From: Robiginitomaculum sp.
GTDB taxonomy: Bacteria; Pseudomonadota; Alphaproteobacteria; Caulobacterales; Maricaulaceae
Direction: 5' to 3'
Length of the DNA stretch: 64,000 bases
NCBI GenBank assembly: GCA_021776525.1
Contig: JAJFFT010000005.1
Span: forward strand, 1 to 64,000
The notes below the pieces were generated by a model. The model was given only the letters and a program-made list of their open reading frames with translations. It ran no database searches and was not told the DNA's origin. The translations under genes and the position numbers were made by a program. Each line of letters opens with the position of its first letter. Positions within the stretch are counted from its first letter, which is position 1. Shown piece by piece: positions 1,988 to 28,863 of the stretch.

Positions 1988-2056
1988 ACAAGACGGTCAG
2001 GTGCAATTTTCGTATATTTATGCTACGCTTTTTTATCTCGGGATAAGGTGACAATT

Positions 2057-2764
2057 ATGAAAAGGCGCAACTTTCTGGCTAATGTCTTAGCCATGTCAGC
2101 CTTGACCAGCCCTTCTGTGGTTTCAGCTCAAACATCTGTTGAGCGCTTGAAGCTGGTTATTGTTGGTGATGGTGCCGTTGGCAAAACCAGCGCCCTGATG
2201 TCTTATTCAACCAACGTTTTTCCAACAGAATATGTGCCTACGGTTTTCGATAATCGGAATGCTCATGTACAGGTTGATGGGGCGCCTGCCATTCTTGGGC
2301 TTTGGGATACGGCAGGCCAAGAGGACTATGACCGTTTACGCCCTTTGAGTTACCCGCAAACAGACGTGTTTATTATCGCATATTCCATTATGTCACGGTC
2401 CAGTTTTGACAATGTCACCAGTAAGTGGGTGCCAGAGATCCGTCGCCATGCTCCTCATACGCCGTTTCTTTTGGCGGGCTTGAAGAGTGACTTACGAAAA
2501 GCATCACTTAACGGGCCTGCTGACGTGCGTATCTCAACGGCAGAGGGGATACAAAAAGCCAAAGCCCTAGGAGGAACATACCGAGAGTGTTCTGCATTAA
2601 CACAAACGGGCTTAAAGACGATGTTTGATACAGCTGTTCGTATAGCGCGCGGCGTAAAAGTGTCGAACCCACCGATATACCAGTTCAAGGTGAAGCCGGT
2701 TTTGCCCAAACGCAAAATAAATATCAAAAAGCTGCCTACCCGGTATTCAATACCGGGTAGATAG
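2057..2764 (+). CDS. Rho/Rac-type small GTPase with Tat-like export signal
   Basis: A 235-residue Ras-superfamily GTPase that is clearly of the eukaryotic Rho/Rac branch. Seen: P-loop GDGAVGKT (37-44), switch I PTVFDN with the Mg-binding Thr62, switch [16 protein letters not shown] with catalytic Gln88, G4 LKSD (142-145) and G5 ECSAL (177-181). Numbering is offset by 27 from human Rac1 up to G4. The Rho insert is about six residues shorter than in Rac1, and Rac Tyr40 is Arg67 here. Residues 1-24 form a signal peptide with a twin-arginine KRRNFL motif and a likely VSA/Q cleavage site. The C-terminus is polybasic but lacks a CaaX cysteine. I chose ATG 2057 over GTG 2048 because AAGG at 2045-2048 is well spaced from it. 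ATG 2093 would drop the signal. Base composition is more AT-rich than its neighbours. Transfer from a eukaryote and export are inferences. Confidence 0.88.
2736..2760. terminator. Hairpin overlapping the GTPase C-terminal codons
   Basis: A 12-base stem (CTACCCGGTATT, 2736-2747) pairs perfectly with 2749-2760, and the stop codon follows at 2762. It lies between convergent genes. There is no strong T-tract on either side, so termination is plausible but not certain. The hairpin encodes the last residues of the GTPase. Confidence 0.5.
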
Positions 2765-14662: not shown

Positions 14663-15403
14663 TCATAAATTATTCCTTAGCCAATACATTACAATAGCAA
14701 AAATAGTAGCACCAATAATGAAAATTCTAACTAATTTAGCATCTTTAGCTTTCCGTAAGTTCTTCTGAGCTTCGGCAGCTAACCGATTCTTTTCTTCCTG
14801 TTCAACTTTTACCAATGCAGCTTTCTTGCTTTTTTCAATTTGTTCAAGTCGTTCGGTTTCAAGAAGTTCAGATTTTTGAATTTCTTTATCTTTTACGATA
14901 AGGATTTCAAAAATTGCTTCCACTAAATTGTCGTTTATGTTTGTAAATTTCATATTTCGTAAATTACGAATTTCTTCGCACAATGTTTCGTTGTTATAAA
15001 CAACTTCAGAGTGATTTTTCTCTAGGCAATCGAAGGCACGGTAATCTAAATATGCATTTCTATAAGCGGTAGTATAATTACCTTCATTTCTGTAATCAGT
15101 ATGTTCAAAAATTATTTTGTGAAAAACAAAGCACAAGGTATTAGTATTTTTTATGGTTGCAAAAATTGCGTATGTTTTTTCTTCTCTAAATCTCGGGTAA
15201 CTTGGGCCATCGTGGTTGATAATAATAGATGATTCCATTTTTGTATTAATATTTGCGGTAGAAAATTTAACATCCAATTTGGTTGGTTGTGCCTCTAATA
15301 CGTCACGCAATTGGTCAATAACTTTCTTTTGACTAGGATCAGCAGAAGTCCCAATTGCTTCTTCTGTTTGTTGTTTAGTCTCAATTTTCTTTTCGATATC
15401 CAT
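14663..15403 (-). CDS. AT-rich orphan protein, coiled coil plus C-terminal membrane helix
   Basis: A 246-residue protein I do not recognise. The N-terminal 30 residues are polar. A mixed alpha/beta region spans about 40-175, with YAIFATIKNTNTLCFVFHKI near 78. Then a long Lys/Glu-rich helix likely to be a coiled coil runs over about 175-220. One transmembrane helix at 225-240 ends the protein, a tail-anchor topology that leaves the bulk in the cytoplasm. Its base composition is strikingly AT-rich compared with hppA and bamE on either side. It stands before the higBA pair and is probably acquired DNA. AGGG precedes the ATG. Confidence 0.6.
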   Translation of the reverse strand: MDIEKKIETKQQTEEAIGTSADPSQKKVIDQLRDVLEAQPTKLDVKFSTANINTKMESSIIINHDGPSYPRFREEKTYAIFATIKNTNTLCFVFHKIIFEHTDYRNEGNYTTAYRNAYLDYRAFDCLEKNHSEVVYNNETLCEEIRNLRNMKFTNINDNLVEAIFEILIVKDKEIQKSELLETERLEQIEKSKKAALVKVEQEEKNRLAAEAQKNLRKAKDAKLVRIFIIGATIFAIVMYWLRNNL

Positions 15404-21213: not shown

Positions 21214-21651
21214 TCAGGTGTGTTCTTGGTCGCCATTATCGACTACGGGGTCATTAGTAGCTAATTCACCGGTAGCAACGTTCCGCATTACAATTTGGTA
21301 CCTGTGCGAATAAAGCTTATTGCAGGCATCGTTTAGGATTACTGCACGTCTTGATTGGTCTGAGAAAGCTACTGTAAAGTCACCGTCCTTCGGATAAATA
21401 GATATTCCTTCCCAAGTGATGCCATCCATCTCAAACTCGTGAAACACCCAACCCTCATCCATAGATGCAAAAATAAAATTTGTTTCGTTTCCTGCATGAA
21501 AATCACCAGACCCTTCGCCAGTGTATACCCGATGTGCTTTGACTAACTTTCCGTTCAGCACCTCTGCATAAGGGTAAACTCGAACAGCAATATGCCGAAT
21601 GTCAGTTCCCGTAAAACCAAGGTTTTTGAACGTGTTTATATTACCTGTCAT
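21214..21651 (-). CDS. Unknown island operon protein (145 aa)
   Basis: A 145-residue soluble protein with no signal or membrane helix and no motif I recognise. It looks beta-rich: HIAVRVYPYAEVLNG, VFHEFEMDGITWEGISIYP and YQIVMRNVATGEL suggest strands. Its start overlaps the stop of the TIR-like/TPR gene by four bases (ATGA), which means coupled translation and probably a shared function with it. The XRE regulator gene follows 16 bases later. Confidence 0.65.
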   Translation of the reverse strand: MTGNINTFKNLGFTGTDIRHIAVRVYPYAEVLNGKLVKAHRVYTGEGSGDFHAGNETNFIFASMDEGWVFHEFEMDGITWEGISIYPKDGDFTVAFSDQSRRAVILNDACNKLYSHRYQIVMRNVATGELATNDPVVDNGDQEHT

Positions 21652-23687
21652 AGCTTATTTCCTTTGCTGATGCTACTGATGATATTGTTTGAATCTTGCT
21701 GTTGCTTCCAGAAAGCAACAAATCCCGGATGCTTGTATGAAGATGCAATTAGCTCTTTTTGAAGCGCTATCGCAGCCTCTTTATATCCCAATTTCCACAA
21801 GCACCTGCTGAGTAGGTCTTTGGCGTTCCTGCGCTTTTTGCCTTTAGTACCCTCAAGGACTGTAGCTGCGGACCGCCACGATGCCATAGCCTCGCCATAT
21901 TGGCCCAACTGTTCTAGAGCCAGCCCCCTTAGGAAGTGAGCCTTGCCCTTTAATAGGGTATTTTCTCTGTTGGACCCGTTAGCTTTTGCCATTTCAATGT
22001 CAAGCAGTGCGGAAGATACCTCAGCAAGGGCGTGTTCTGGAGAATTTCCCTTTAATGCTGTGGTGGCCGACAGCAGCTTCATTGAAGCGGCCTCTCTATA
22101 ACGAATGTCATTTGCACCATTATCATCGTTGTTTGCTCGGAACCTTCTGGCCTCGTCGATAAGGAGTTTCGCAGTAATATAATTCCCGTTAAGGATTTTT
22201 ATTTCGGCTATTTTTTGGACTACAGAAACGTAAATTGCTCTGTATCTCAGGTTTCTAGGGTCGTTTTCATATACTTCTTTCATCATGTCAGAAGCATAGT
22301 AGAGGCGATCTAGTGCCTGTGTTGTATTCCCGTTATCGATTTCAATTTTTGACAACTTGAGCAACGAATTGGCTAGATATTTTTTTCTTAAAGAATTGGT
22401 TGGTTGTTCTTTAATAAGTTTTTCGAAAATCTCGATTTGCTGTTGATTTGAATGTTTTGCTTCAGAAAACTCCCCAAGTTCAAGGTATGCATCAGCCTCC
22501 CAGCCAAGAAATTGTGCTTTATCCTTATAAGTGGCAAACCCTGAGGTTATGGTTTTTATGTCCAAAATTTTGAGGGCATCTTGTATGTCGCTCAGAGCGG
22601 TTTTGGGATCTCCAGATTCGAGCTTTACAATCCCATAATTGACAAGGGCATAGGCGACTTCAACTTTATATTTTATGCTCGTTTTATCGCGAGCTGCCAA
22701 CTCTGCGCTATAGGCTTTATATGCTGAAAATGCCTTCTCTGCCTGTTTCAGATCCCCTTTACGATAAGCTGCATTTCCAAGCCAAAAAGCAGATTGAGAA
22801 TGTTCGAATATCACCTGGCTATCGCTTGGGTGGCGCTGAACAAGTTCATTTGTAAACGTGTTTGCCAGCTGAAATGAAGTGATGGCCTTGTCAGGATTCC
22901 CAACTTGATCATGGGCATTTCCGATGACATGCAGTAGTTTTGCTCGGCGAGATAGCTCACTATCTGTAAGTGAATTTGGGGGTGCTGATGAAAGCGCTAT
23001 GAGGGCGCTTTCACCCAACTTGGCGATGTGTTCTGAGCGCACGTTTTTTGGCAACTCTTTTGACATCTCAGAAAGGACGGCCTGAGCAAATAGGTTGGCA
23101 TTCTGGGCCTCAATTTTGTGTTCTTGAGCGGATTTGTTGAGCGAATAGCTTGCGCCTATAAATACAACAGCAAGCGATGCTGCGATGGCCGTGAACATGG
23201 TTTTTACTGCTGAGAAGGGAGGTGGAGTCTTTAGCCCAGTGGCTTGCAATATTCTTCTAGCGGCACGTATATAACTATCGTCTGTACCGGATAGGTCGCA
23301 AATATATGAAGGTGTAGGGGCCTTTTTAAGGCGGCCATTTTCTCCCATGGAGGTTAATAATGCAGCTGGTAAAGCATTTTTATTCGGCGCTTCATTCTGA
23401 CACGTAACCCGGATAGGAAGTATATTGGTTCTGGGGCTTTTTTTAAGGAAGCCTTCGATGTTGAGGCTTACTGCAATAGATTTGACACTTGAGTGTGAGC
23501 ACAAAACAACAAGATGGGTTATGTTTTCAGGTATAACCTGATTGCGTTCTTTAAAGTCTAAATCGGAGGACGCCAGTTGAACAAAATTTTTATCTGGAGC
23601 CATAGACACCATTTGCGCATACAGCCTGTGGGCTAGCCTCACATTCTCTGATGAAAATGTAATGAGTATTTTTGATTGCATGTTCAT
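21648..23687 (-). CDS. TIR-like domain, membrane helix and TPR protein
   Basis: A 679-residue protein in three parts. Residues 5-150 resemble a TIR/SEFIR-type domain: KILITFSSENVRLAHRLY, then THLVVLCSHSSVKS near 57-70, then NILPIRV near 88-94. One transmembrane helix lies at about 162-181. From about 240 to 645 there are tetratricopeptide-like helical repeats, for example ANTFTNELVQRHPSD and FLRGLALEQLGQYGEAMASW. This architecture is known in bacterial TIR-TPR membrane proteins. The usual WVNEEI segment holding the TIR catalytic Glu appears as AVSLNIEGF, so NADase activity is doubtful. The start overlaps the stop of the preceding gene (TAATG). The cytoplasmic TIR-like and periplasmic TPR placement is inferred. 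Confidence 0.75.
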   Translation of the reverse strand: MNMQSKILITFSSENVRLAHRLYAQMVSMAPDKNFVQLASSDLDFKERNQVIPENITHLVVLCSHSSVKSIAVSLNIEGFLKKSPRTNILPIRVTCQNEAPNKNALPAALLTSMGENGRLKKAPTPSYICDLSGTDDSYIRAARRILQATGLKTPPPFSAVKTMFTAIAASLAVVFIGASYSLNKSAQEHKIEAQNANLFAQAVLSEMSKELPKNVRSEHIAKLGESALIALSSAPPNSLTDSELSRRAKLLHVIGNAHDQVGNPDKAITSFQLANTFTNELVQRHPSDSQVIFEHSQSAFWLGNAAYRKGDLKQAEKAFSAYKAYSAELAARDKTSIKYKVEVAYALVNYGIVKLESGDPKTALSDIQDALKILDIKTITSGFATYKDKAQFLGWEADAYLELGEFSEAKHSNQQQIEIFEKLIKEQPTNSLRKKYLANSLLKLSKIEIDNGNTTQALDRLYYASDMMKEVYENDPRNLRYRAIYVSVVQKIAEIKILNGNYITAKLLIDEARRFRANNDDNGANDIRYREAASMKLLSATTALKGNSPEHALAEVSSALLDIEMAKANGSNRENTLLKGKAHFLRGLALEQLGQYGEAMASWRSAATVLEGTKGKKRRNAKDLLSRCLWKLGYKEAAIALQKELIASSYKHPGFVAFWKQQQDSNNIISSISKGNKL

Positions 23688-26435: not shown

Positions 26436-27445
26436 GGCGCACTGGCGTCGGCTTTGGCCGGGATAGTATCCAGAACCACCAGGGCGATGCGGTTTGTGCT
26501 GTCATCAGCCACGGCAATCAAGCCAGCGGAAAACCCGGCTCCACCAAAAGAGCGAGCAGACAGCGCCAAAGCGCCCGGATTGGCGGCCCCGGGTGTGCTT
26601 AGCGCCTTGGGCGTTAGAAGATCATAAAGCGGCAGCAGGTTTTCATCATAAGCGTGCAAATTGCCCGCAGCAGGGTCTGAAACCAGGATCACTTTGGTGC
26701 CGGCATTGTCGGCGACAATTACCTGTCCCGGGGCGCTTTCAACGCCTGAAACCATGCTGATGCCATTATCCACTGACAGGCGGAACAACCCGCCTTTGGC
26801 ACCGGTGGCCATGGCATTTGTGCTCGACGCGGCACAGTTGGAAATGGCAACAGCCAGTTTGCCGCTTTGCAGTTTTTGCGCGCTGAGCTGTGCGTTGCCG
26901 TTATCGCTGAGGCTCCAGACGTCCAGCGTTTTATCGGCATTGCCGATCAGAAAGGCCGGAGCCTTGTCGCCGGTCTTAACCGTACAAACAGTAGTAATAT
27001 TGCCGTCTGGCAGGCCAGAAACAGGCAATTCAATCAATTGCCCACGGGCATCATCAACGATAAAGGACAACAGGCCGCCATCATCTTTGAGGGCCAAAAC
27101 AACGCTGGTTTCAAGTCCGCGCAGGTTAAACCCCGGATGCGCGGCCAGTGCGGTAATTGTCGCGCCGGACCAATTGCTGTCTTCCTTGCCTTCAATATCG
27201 ACAACTTTCAGGCCCCCGGCCTGTGCGGCGATGATCAGGCGGCCTTCCCATGGCACAGTGGTCACCGGAACAAACGTGATGGCGTTGACATGATCATCAA
27301 ACGGGCCAAGTGAGGCCGAAGCAAAGACCTGTGCCCCCGGCCGTACGGCGGTGTCGTCTGTTGGTGTGGTTTGCGGCTCGCACGCGGCGAGGGCCAGAAC
27401 ACCAAGGCCAAGGGCCAGGCTTTTTACGAGCGCGCCGTGTCCCAC
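26432..27445 (-). CDS. Periplasmic lipoprotein, probable beta-propeller
   Basis: A 337-residue lipoprotein. The signal peptide LALGLGVLALAAC ends in a lipobox. The rest shows repeating beta-strand units (for example LIIAAQAGGLKVVDIEG, FLIGNADKTLDVWSL, GGLFRLSVDNGI), suggesting a phytase-like or WD-like propeller. Catalytic residues are not evident. No ATG fits; I use GTG 27445, which overlaps the end of the PhoX-like gene by 22 bases. The upstream ORF to 27529 would put the signal peptide inside. It forms an operon with the PhoX-like gene, so a role near phosphate scavenging is possible but only inferred. Confidence 0.65.
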   Translation of the reverse strand: MGHGALVKSLALGLGVLALAACEPQTTPTDDTAVRPGAQVFASASLGPFDDHVNAITFVPVTTVPWEGRLIIAAQAGGLKVVDIEGKEDSNWSGATITALAAHPGFNLRGLETSVVLALKDDGGLLSFIVDDARGQLIELPVSGLPDGNITTVCTVKTGDKAPAFLIGNADKTLDVWSLSDNGNAQLSAQKLQSGKLAVAISNCAASSTNAMATGAKGGLFRLSVDNGISMVSGVESAPGQVIVADNAGTKVILVSDPAAGNLHAYDENLLPLYDLLTPKALSTPGAANPGALALSARSFGGAGFSAGLIAVADDSTNRIALVVLDTIPAKADASAP

Positions 27446-28863
27446 GGGCCGCGCACCGCCAGCGTCAGGCCGCTTTGTTGCAGATTGAGATACAGGGTTT
27501 TTCCATCGGGTCCGAAACATGTTCCACAAAACTCATTATGTTGTTTCAGCGCAGAGCGCGCCAAAGTGTAAATGCGACCATCAGGGGTGATGCCGCGGAT
27601 GTAGTTATCGCCTTTGCCGTCTTCACAGGCAATCAGATCTCCCCATGGGGCGATGGTCAAATTGTCAATGTATTCCATCACAGATGGGTCGGGCGATTCA
27701 ACAAAAAGCTGCAGCCGTCCTGGTTGGCGGCTTTCCAGAGGTGTGCCTTCGACGGGTGAGGGCACATAGCGCCAGACCTGCCCGACCTTGGCTGGGCCGC
27801 CATTGGTGCAGGTGAAATACATCTCGTTTTGCCCAAACCAAATGCCTTCACCGCGTGTGAAACGTGCCGCGCCGTCATCGAGGCCACGCACTTCAATATC
27901 ATTGTCGGGGTTGTCGACCGCGTCCAGATCAACCCATTCGGTATACATCCATTGGCCAGAGGCAATTTTGGCACCCTGACTTTCCGGCCAATTACGTAAA
28001 TCTCTGGAAGGCTCGCCAACAATAGCCAGCGCCTGTAATTTTCCGCCTTCGTGCAATTTGCCAGGCACATCAGGTAGAAACCGGTACAAAAGGCTGGGCT
28101 TGGGGCCGCTGTCCTGGGTCATATAAACAATCGACGAGCGCGGATCGACACAGGCGGCTTCGTGCGAGAAACGCCCCATGGTATGTAGCGGCACAGCCTT
28201 TTGCAAGCCAGAATCAGGATCGGCCTGTACCTCGAAGGCATAGCCATGGTCTTGGGCGCGCCCGGCTTTTTGATCGGCCAGCAAGGTGGTTTCCTCGCAG
28301 GTGATCCAACTGCCCCATGGGGTCAAACCACCAGCGCAATTGTTATATGTGCCACCAAGCGCCAGATATTGCTGTTCCACTCGCATGCTGCCTTCGTCAA
28401 TAACAAGGCCGGTCACGCCGCCCGCCAATTGTCGCCCTGATCCGCCATGGTCATAAAGTTTGTCCTGATCAACAAGGCCAAGGCGTTTGTCGCCACGGCC
28501 AAACGGGCTGATCGCCTGATTGACCGGCGGCAGTTCGCGCAGCAGATCGGCGCGGGCAATTTCATGATTGCGCAAGAGCAGCGTCTTGCCGTCTTTTGTG
28601 GCGAAGGCGGCCATGCCATCAGGGTCAGCGGGGACCAAAAGGCCATCGCTCATTTCATCGCCCATGCGCGACAGGATTTTGTATTCAAAACCTTTGGGTA
28701 AATCCAAAACGCTGTTTGGGTCGCTTTTTAAGGGGCCATACTGGTCCGTTGTCATTGCAAAGGACTTTACCGCTTTGGGCGAACAAGCCGCCAAAGCAGC
28801 ATAACCGGCAAAGGCGCTGGTGACACTGGCGCGGGACAGAAAGGAACGGCGGGAGATTTTCAT
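27424..28863 (-). CDS. PhoX-family (DUF839) Tat-exported protein
   Basis: A 479-residue secreted protein with a clear twin-arginine signal SRRSFLSRASV followed by a hydrophobic stretch and ALAACS, where a Cys near residue 27 may allow lipidation. The mature part has the PhoX/DUF839 features: LLLRNHEIARAD near 96, GGLTPWGSWITCEETTLL near 178, MGRFSHEAA near 229 and the closing GPWDTAR. PhoX proteins are Ca/Fe-dependent alkaline phosphatases in the periplasm. Activity on phosphate esters is inferred from family only. Confidence 0.85.
   Translation of the reverse strand: MKISRRSFLSRASVTSAFAGYAALAACSPKAVKSFAMTTDQYGPLKSDPNSVLDLPKGFEYKILSRMGDEMSDGLLVPADPDGMAAFATKDGKTLLLRNHEIARADLLRELPPVNQAISPFGRGDKRLGLVDQDKLYDHGGSGRQLAGGVTGLVIDEGSMRVEQQYLALGGTYNNCAGGLTPWGSWITCEETTLLADQKAGRAQDHGYAFEVQADPDSGLQKAVPLHTMGRFSHEAACVDPRSSIVYMTQDSGPKPSLLYRFLPDVPGKLHEGGKLQALAIVGEPSRDLRNWPESQGAKIASGQWMYTEWVDLDAVDNPDNDIEVRGLDDGAARFTRGEGIWFGQNEMYFTCTNGGPAKVGQVWRYVPSPVEGTPLESRQPGRLQLFVESPDPSVMEYIDNLTIAPWGDLIACEDGKGDNYIRGITPDGRIYTLARSALKQHNEFCGTCFGPDGKTLYLNLQQSGLTLAVRGPWDTARS

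Follow-up and report, generated by a model that had tools for sequence, protein, structure and literature searches.

A Rac-like small GTPase of eukaryotic origin with a conserved Tat-type signal peptide in marine Alphaproteobacteria

RESULTS AND DISCUSSION

The window, that is, the whole 64,000-nucleotide stretch of Robiginitomaculum sp. DNA analyzed here, contains a gene encoding a Rac-like small GTPase whose product opens with a Tat-type signal, and this pairing is conserved in marine bacteria of one alphaproteobacterial order. The protein groups within the Rho family in trees, its G4 nucleotide-binding motif is altered in every copy, and substitution ratios and comparisons of loci indicate that the gene is under purifying selection and changes site among its carriers. 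On balance, we lean toward the explanation that a Rac derived from a eukaryote has been converted into a Rac mimic that is exported, probably needs no GEF, and is directed at eukaryotic partners.

The Rac-like gene and its bacterial setting

The open reading frame begins with an ATG at 2057, ends with a TAG stop at 2762-2764, and encodes a product of 235 amino acids in which a Rac-like G domain lies behind a Tat-type signal, exactly as an earlier note on this DNA had claimed. The gene and the elements at its start are as follows, with the basis of each assignment in parentheses.

2037..2056, plus strand: Shine-Dalgarno-like AAGG, 8 nt ahead of the ATG (upstream bases)
2057..2764, plus strand: putatively exported Rac-like GTPase gene, 235 amino acids plus stop (open reading frame, Pfam, PDB matches, relatives)
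2057..2128, plus strand: Tat-type signal peptide, likely cleavage after VSA at residue 24 (sequence; motif in the copies)

Sequences resembling AGGAGG or GGGAG/GGAGG stand ahead of the start in the 12 other signal-bearing copies, all of which have the same twin-arginine start position. Translation from 2093, which would yield a protein without a signal and which the earlier note had named as grounds for giving up its reading, is rejected because no Shine-Dalgarno-like motif occurs within the 25 bases ahead of 2093, AAGG lies ahead of 2057, and the starts of the relatives agree.

The host contig is 414 kb long within a genome of 2.96 Mb, and the neighbors of the gene are bacterial, with an amidohydrolase gene before it and genes for a DUF1761 protein and methionyl-tRNA synthetase (metG) after it. 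Third-position GC is 0.47 in the Rac-like gene of the window and 0.58 and 0.62 in two neighboring genes; over all of the copies it spans 0.47 to 0.74 and tends to track the locus. A perfect 12-base inverted repeat occupies positions 2736-2760 and ends one base ahead of the GTPase stop codon. Elsewhere in the window, the minus strand encodes a 679-amino-acid TPR protein (21648-23687) in a low-GC stretch (42-45%), the N terminus of which looks SEFIR/TIR-like by eye, without confirmation from Pfam, and a 246-amino-acid open reading frame (14663-15403), also in low-GC DNA, which had no Pfam match at 0.01.

Distribution of the gene

A search for the same gene in related genomes, one of the checks proposed at the outset, recovered 13 copies in 13 genomes of the order, one in each, of which 12 are intact and one has an internal stop. 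The carriers belong to the window's genus (six), to another genus of the family, in which all named members are Maricaulis (five), to Marinicaulis (one), and to a further family (one). Sampling of 398 genomes from the order yielded 12 carriers, and the thirteenth was added by the search of the genus, where 6 of 18 genomes carry the gene and the remaining 12 gave no match. A sample of 385 genomes from the class returned the window's own gene and four weak matches (E values from 1.3e-7 to 8.4e-4), three of which (L040, L041, and L042) are other small GTPases, the fourth being L043. The three are stand-alone, Ras/Rab-like proteins in other alphaproteobacterial genomes, unrelated to the Rac-like clade, and L042 is nearest to Rab23 among PDB matches; all three were first labeled MglA-like by eye, a label that was dropped on inspection.

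Outside the class, 2 of 78 genomes of Zetaproteobacteria contain a shorter Rac-like relative. A pattern-based scan of one genome per species, covering 84,980 species, yielded 33 loci: 8 alphaproteobacterial, 2 zetaproteobacterial, 20 archaeal, 2 suspected to be eukaryotic contaminants, and 1 encoding a nitronate monooxygenase. The Rac-like protein had no match at an E value of 1e-5 in phages and plasmids and none among viral contigs in the pattern scan, and carriage by phages, plasmids, or viruses is rejected on these grounds. Two Rac-like matches from other bacteria appear by eye to be eukaryotic contamination, namely, L016 (1-798) from a Deltaproteobacteria MAG, which has a Gly-rich start and a CaaX-like CCAIQ end, and L030 (7992-8831) from a Verrucomicrobiaceae MAG, which has eight stops and an intron-like structure.

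No conserved partner gene was found when open reading frames of at least 120 amino acids within 6 kb were compared among 15 loci, several of them short; neighbors were common to close relatives only, with the exception of one neighbor family several kilobases off in L008 and L013. Directly upstream of one of the Zetaproteobacterial Rac-like genes, on the same strand, is a gene for a phage-type lysozyme (PF00959; L015, 379-888). The isolate name of the carrier with locus L011 suggests an origin in the Favne vent iron mat. According to the available text of one report, this mat was studied for its Zetaproteobacteria, and a Robiginitomaculum MAG accounted for about 2% of the MAGs (PMC10734525).

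Descent from the Rho family

The Pfam Ras family (PF00071) matches residues 32-195 of the window copy with an E value of 1.6e-45, and human Rac3 and Rac1 head its matches among PDB sequences (best, 5.5e-65). The window copy is 62% identical to human Rac1; identity to that protein is 60-70% in 11 of the 12 intact copies and 41% in the other, and human RhoA stands at 60%. The trees were built on the G domain only and contained seven eukaryotic-type Rho rows, one of them L016, itself a suspected contaminant. All 12 intact copies fall into a single clade (98/91) within the Rho clade (100/98), separate from Ras, from archaeal small GTPases, and from those of other bacteria. This bears out the placement in the Rho branch that the earlier note had read from motifs in switch I, switch II, and the G5 ECSALT, all of which are present. 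The Zetaproteobacterial pair is sister to the signal-bearing clade (86/85), a placement that is not firm and is lost once long rows are left out; the long branches flagged were those of HRAS, L042, L054, and some archaeal rows. The stopped copy (L013 = L051) was left out of the trees, as it was from the pair counts, the tails, and the Cys counts, and L030 and L039 were unused.

A clade of eukaryotic Rho proteins that excludes the bacterial rows was rejected by the AU test (p = 0.023; p = 0.035 without the long rows). The groups compared were chosen with a first tree already in view, so p values near 0.03 carry less weight. Grouping of the bacterial Rac-like rows with the three other alphaproteobacterial small GTPases (L040 to L042) was rejected as well (p = 4e-5) in trees that contain no true MglA. 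A group of the signal-bearing clade with human Rac alone was weakly rejected (p = 0.04), and the same group enlarged by the Zetaproteobacterial pair was not (p = 0.30). The position within the Rho clade, the AU tests, and the identity to Rac1 together show that the gene is of eukaryotic origin, in support of the transfer from a eukaryote that had been proposed for it.

Changes of site and purifying selection

Eight loci were compared whose amidohydrolase shares about 80% identity or more with that of the window; at one of them, the available stretch showed no neighbor. In seven genomes of the same genus, the amidohydrolase, DUF1761, and metG genes stand together without the GTPase, and the matches to the first two are separated by 50-70 bases. 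A different GC-rich, hairpin-like sequence lies in the empty sites at the junction where the window has the inverted repeat. Four of these seven genomes hold the GTPase at another place, so comparison of the loci indicates that the gene changes site among its carriers. The window amidohydrolase is 89-91% identical to those of genomes G007, G002, and G012, with which the GTPase shares only 57-61% identity. In the GTPase tree, a single clade for the window's genus was not rejected (p = 0.054), and transfer between genera therefore rests on the site changes and on the 57-61% against 89-91% identity.

The ratio dN/dS, calculated with our own Nei-Gojobori script, was 0.15-0.32 in six of eight pairs, some of the six having dS above 1 and the other two pairs being saturated. 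These ratios indicate purifying selection on the Rac-like gene. The internal stop in a Maricaulis copy (L013/L051) implies that decay of the gene is under way in at least one species.

Signal peptide and candidate export routes

The twin-arginine signal first noticed in the window copy recurs throughout the family: all 13 copies, including the stopped one, open with [KQR]RR, after which comes a stretch of weak hydrophobicity. The 12 intact copies all combine the twin-arginine motif, a short and weakly hydrophobic core, and candidate AxA-type cleavage sites, for which at most four candidates were printed per copy and sites at residues 23-27 were also picked by eye. Among 10 members scanned, eight of which carry the signal, five matched the Pfam TAT_signal model (best E value, 1.9e-4) and two matched the NCBIfam Tat model (best, 0.035); the window copy matched neither of these two models. 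The two Zetaproteobacterial copies have no signal. A conserved Tat-type signal on a Rac-like protein is thus evident from comparison of the copies. A PhoX-family phosphatase encoded elsewhere in the window (27424-28863, minus strand) has by eye a classical Tat signal (MKISRRSFLSRAS...) and is likely a second Tat substrate.

TatC was detected in all 14 carrier genomes searched, that is, the 12 with intact signal-bearing copies and the two Zetaproteobacteria, with G607, the genome of the stopped copy, left out. GspD exceeded the cut-off in 13 of these 14. The same protein was found in 10 of the 12 noncarriers of the genus at 1e-60 and in 8 of the 12 over the cut-off (14 of 18 in the genus as a whole); because GspD is general in the genus, it does not discriminate carriers from noncarriers and is no special pointer to type II export. 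A VirB4-like match, in a family that takes in conjugation ATPases too, exceeded the cut-off in four carriers, including the window's genome. The other 10 had no match, so a type IV system as the common route is rejected, and type IV transport is possible in those four.

Cysteine content differs between the forms. Rac Cys81 is gone from all 12 intact signal-bearing copies and present in both signal-less Zetaproteobacterial copies, and Cys105 is gone from both groups alike. The G domain contains one to four Cys residues in the signal-bearing copies, five in Rac1, Cdc42, and RhoA, and five and four in the Zetaproteobacterial pair (Mann-Whitney p = 0.0013 for 12 versus 7 rows, which are related and hence nonindependent); plant ROP and L016 have only three, within the range of the signal-bearing copies. 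The loss of Cys would fit an oxidizing compartment and is no proof of export. From the conserved signal, we infer that the marine carriers probably secrete the Rac-like protein.

A Rho-derived G domain that departs from the Rho pattern

The elements of the G domain and tail in the window copy are listed below.

2147..2653, plus strand: Rac-like G domain, residues 31-199 (Pfam, PDB, trees, model)
2165..2188, plus strand: G1 P-loop GDGAVGKT (comparison with Rac)
2237..2254, plus strand: switch I PTVFDN, then Arg where Rac has Tyr40 (comparison with Rac)
2303..2341, plus strand: G3 and switch, catalytic Gln retained in the window copy (comparison with Rac)
2480..2491, plus strand: altered G4 LKSD, Leu replacing Asn/Thr (comparison with Rac)
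2492..2533, plus strand: shortened Rho insert region, 14 residues versus 19 in Rac1 (comparison with Rac; model)
2588..2602, plus strand: G5 CSALT (comparison with Rac)
2669..2761, plus strand: basic C-terminal tail, 31 residues, net charge +9, 6 Pro, no CaaX box

The window copy has G1, Thr35 of switch I, the DTAG of G3, and the CSA of G5; L054, a divergent copy, reads DTSG. All 12 intact copies retain Lys-Thr in the P-loop, Lys and Asp in G4, and Asp in G3. The earlier note had described all nucleotide-binding elements as present, which fails at G4, where every one of the 13 copies has Leu, Tyr, Phe, or Met at the first place (the Asn/Thr of [NT]KxD), with the Lys and Asp retained. The catalytic Gln (Rac Gln61) is indeed kept in the window copy, as that note had it, and is absent from 7 of the 13 copies: the position holds Gln in six, Asp in four, Ala in two, and Thr in one, and the tree of intact copies requires the Gln to have switched between present and absent at least three times. 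With G4 altered in every copy and the Gln lost in more than half, an ordinary regulated GTPase cycle is, on sequence grounds, unlikely as the conserved function, and the suggestion of an active GTPase does not stand in the form in which it was made.

Conservation relative to Rac1 is uneven. Over 12 copies, the P-loop is 95% identical, switch I 86%, and switch II 91%; beta4, alpha4, alpha5, and the insert are 18-47% identical (18-45% without beta4), and the remainder is 50-66%. As a control, Cdc42 is 81% identical to Rac1 in switch I and 100% in switch II, and RhoA is 56% and 95% identical, so conserved switches are a Rho rule and no special sign of eukaryotic partners. The Arg in switch I of the window copy replaces Tyr40, which we take to be a residue that effectors use, and the Marinicaulis copy is also altered in switch I.

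The insert region has 10-14 residues in the copies and 19 in Rac1. An AlphaFold model of the window protein (mean pLDDT, 67; pTM, 0.64; low confidence in the signal and tail) has the G-domain order of elements and places a four-residue helix in the insert region. Sequence and model together suggest the fold of a small-GTPase G domain. The CaaX prenylation box is absent from all 12 intact copies, and in its place is a basic tail of 19-32 residues with a net charge of +3 to +9 and two to six Pro residues; the Zetaproteobacterial copies end ahead of this tail. The protein is thus Rho derived, yet G4, the insert, and the missing CaaX box set it apart from a canonical Rho GTPase.

Proposed function and alternatives

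In the explanation that we favor, a eukaryotic Rac-type gene entered bacteria, acquired a Tat signal, and spread among marine members of one alphaproteobacterial order (Robiginitomaculum-like, Maricaulis, and Marinicaulis), where purifying selection has maintained it. Folding of the protein around guanine nucleotide probably takes place in the cytoplasm; it would then leave in folded form via the Tat machinery, lose its signal at an AxA site, and cross the outer membrane by type II secretion or in vesicles. Outside, it would be a Rac mimic acting on eukaryotic cells of mats and particles, such as grazing protists, with the Rac surface for effectors and regulators (switch I and switch II) retained. 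Action of the exported GTPase in a eukaryotic host or prey, the simplest idea in the earlier note, would be in line with this. Without the G4 Asn/Thr, nucleotide exchange should be faster, and the repeated loss of Gln61, a residue that affects GTP hydrolysis, should block hydrolysis; the two losses point to a GTPase that would take up GTP of the host unaided and remain on, or that would sequester Rac partners. In the available portions of the literature on Ras, changes at Asn116 raise nucleotide dissociation (PMC3000849), and Asn116 is one of the positions at which substitutions activate Ras in a way that depends on stability (PMC8916776). What speaks against the explanation is that the protein has no known domain for translocation and no known path into eukaryotic cells, that its gene has no neighbor in common beyond close relatives, that Arg replaces Tyr40 in the window copy, that Gln61 is kept in 6 of the 13 copies, that 12 of the 18 genomes of the genus lack a match, and that neither Tat model matches the window copy.

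The missing entry domain would be expected if no eukaryote were involved and the Rac fold had been reused as a binding module for a bacterial job in the periplasm or on the cell surface. We regard this as rather unlikely. In its favor, G4 is altered and the Gln often lost, GTP is not supplied outside the cytoplasm, and the carriers named so far are environmental bins. What is retained, however, is the surface recognized by the regulators and effectors of eukaryotic Rac (86% in switch I and 91% in switch II), and we know of no bacterial partner of Rho proteins. The gene is also patchy and changes site, as would an interaction factor rather than a housekeeping gene.

The same departures in G4 (13 of 13 copies) and at Gln61 (7 of 13) would be shared by a pseudo-GTPase decoy, an exported protein that soaks up the Rac GEFs, GAPs, or GDI of the host and so blocks Rac-driven uptake by grazers. 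Weakly nucleotide-binding GTPase variants are classical dominant negatives. The available text of one Ras study describes altered Asn116 as impairing nucleotide binding or speeding release (PMC3000849). Against a decoy, the invariance of the P-loop Lys-Thr, the G4 Lys and Asp, and the G3 Asp in the 12 intact copies suggests that guanine nucleotide is still bound, and we consider such a role improbable.

It is very unlikely that the N terminus is only a membrane anchor and the protein a cytoplasmic polarity switch of the bacterium that works in the manner of MglA. MglA offers a precedent for Ras-like switches in bacteria, in the available part of a survey (PMC4316618), but all 12 intact copies combine a twin-arginine motif with a core of weak hydrophobicity and candidate AxA sites, and the gene is Rac by descent, stand-alone, and patchy. 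Eukaryotic contamination or misassembly, a danger noted from the start and made conceivable by the strong conservation of Rac and by the contaminant-like L016 and L030, is rejected, because the gene lies at base 2057 of a 414-kb contig among bacterial genes, 13 diverged copies in 13 genomes have bacterial start regions and no introns, sites without the gene exist, third-position GC (0.47-0.74) tends to track the locus, and the 12 intact copies have no CaaX box.

Relation to known GTPases

The bacterial copies resemble eukaryotic Rac/Rho proteins in sequence (62% identity of the window copy to human Rac1), in the P-loop, the switches, and G5, and in their position within the Rho family. They differ in having a Tat-type signal, a basic tail rather than a CaaX end, no G4 Asn/Thr, a shortened insert, and, in 7 of 13, no Gln61.

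Small-GTPase effectors of Legionella are sent out through type IV secretion. The eukaryotic-type small GTPases of Legionella are the nearest known kind in the available text of two reports (PMC9757750, PMC7542358), one of which counts about 180 proteins with a small-GTPase domain, some classed as Rho- and Rab-like (PMC9757750). Likened by description rather than by sequence comparison, both sets are eukaryotic-type GTPases of bacteria thought to act in eukaryotic cells; those of Legionella are effectors of an intracellular pathogen, whereas the Rac-like copies have a Tat-type signal and belong to environmental bacteria. The MglA and Rup families, covered in the available part of a survey of prokaryotic Ras-superfamily proteins (PMC4316618), likewise have a Ras-superfamily G domain in bacteria and are set beside the present family by description, true MglA being absent from the trees. 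Fast-cycling or persistently active Rho variants (Rac1 P29S and atypical RHO), as described in the portions of the literature available, share the predicted GEF-free loading and GAP resistance. In contrast to these variants, the bacterial changes are natural, lie at G4 and Gln61, and occur in a protein with an export signal; their kinetics are predicted from sequence.

Literature mostly outside subscription journals contained no Rac/Rho protein with a Tat signal among the matches listed. To our knowledge, no other Ras-superfamily switch leaves a bacterium folded through Tat, and if the favored explanation is true, the Rac-like protein would be the first one known to do so. The signal-less Zetaproteobacterial form and the signal-bearing alphaproteobacterial form may represent a eukaryotic signaling gene on its way to becoming a secreted bacterial protein, and natural selection would have remodeled a GTPase switch for surroundings that lack GTP. 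These predictions lend themselves to simple tests on purified protein and on Maricaulis in culture.

In eukaryotes, Rac is a switch for control of the cytoskeleton and for engulfment of particles, and the carriers may use the Rac-like protein on surrounding eukaryotic cells. More tentatively, the copies may constitute a family of natural exported Rac mimics, with a Tat signal, GEF free and GAP resistant, that control the cytoskeleton or engulfment of protists. If so, free-living bacteria would manipulate their grazers with a Rac of their own, with no injection machine known to carry it.
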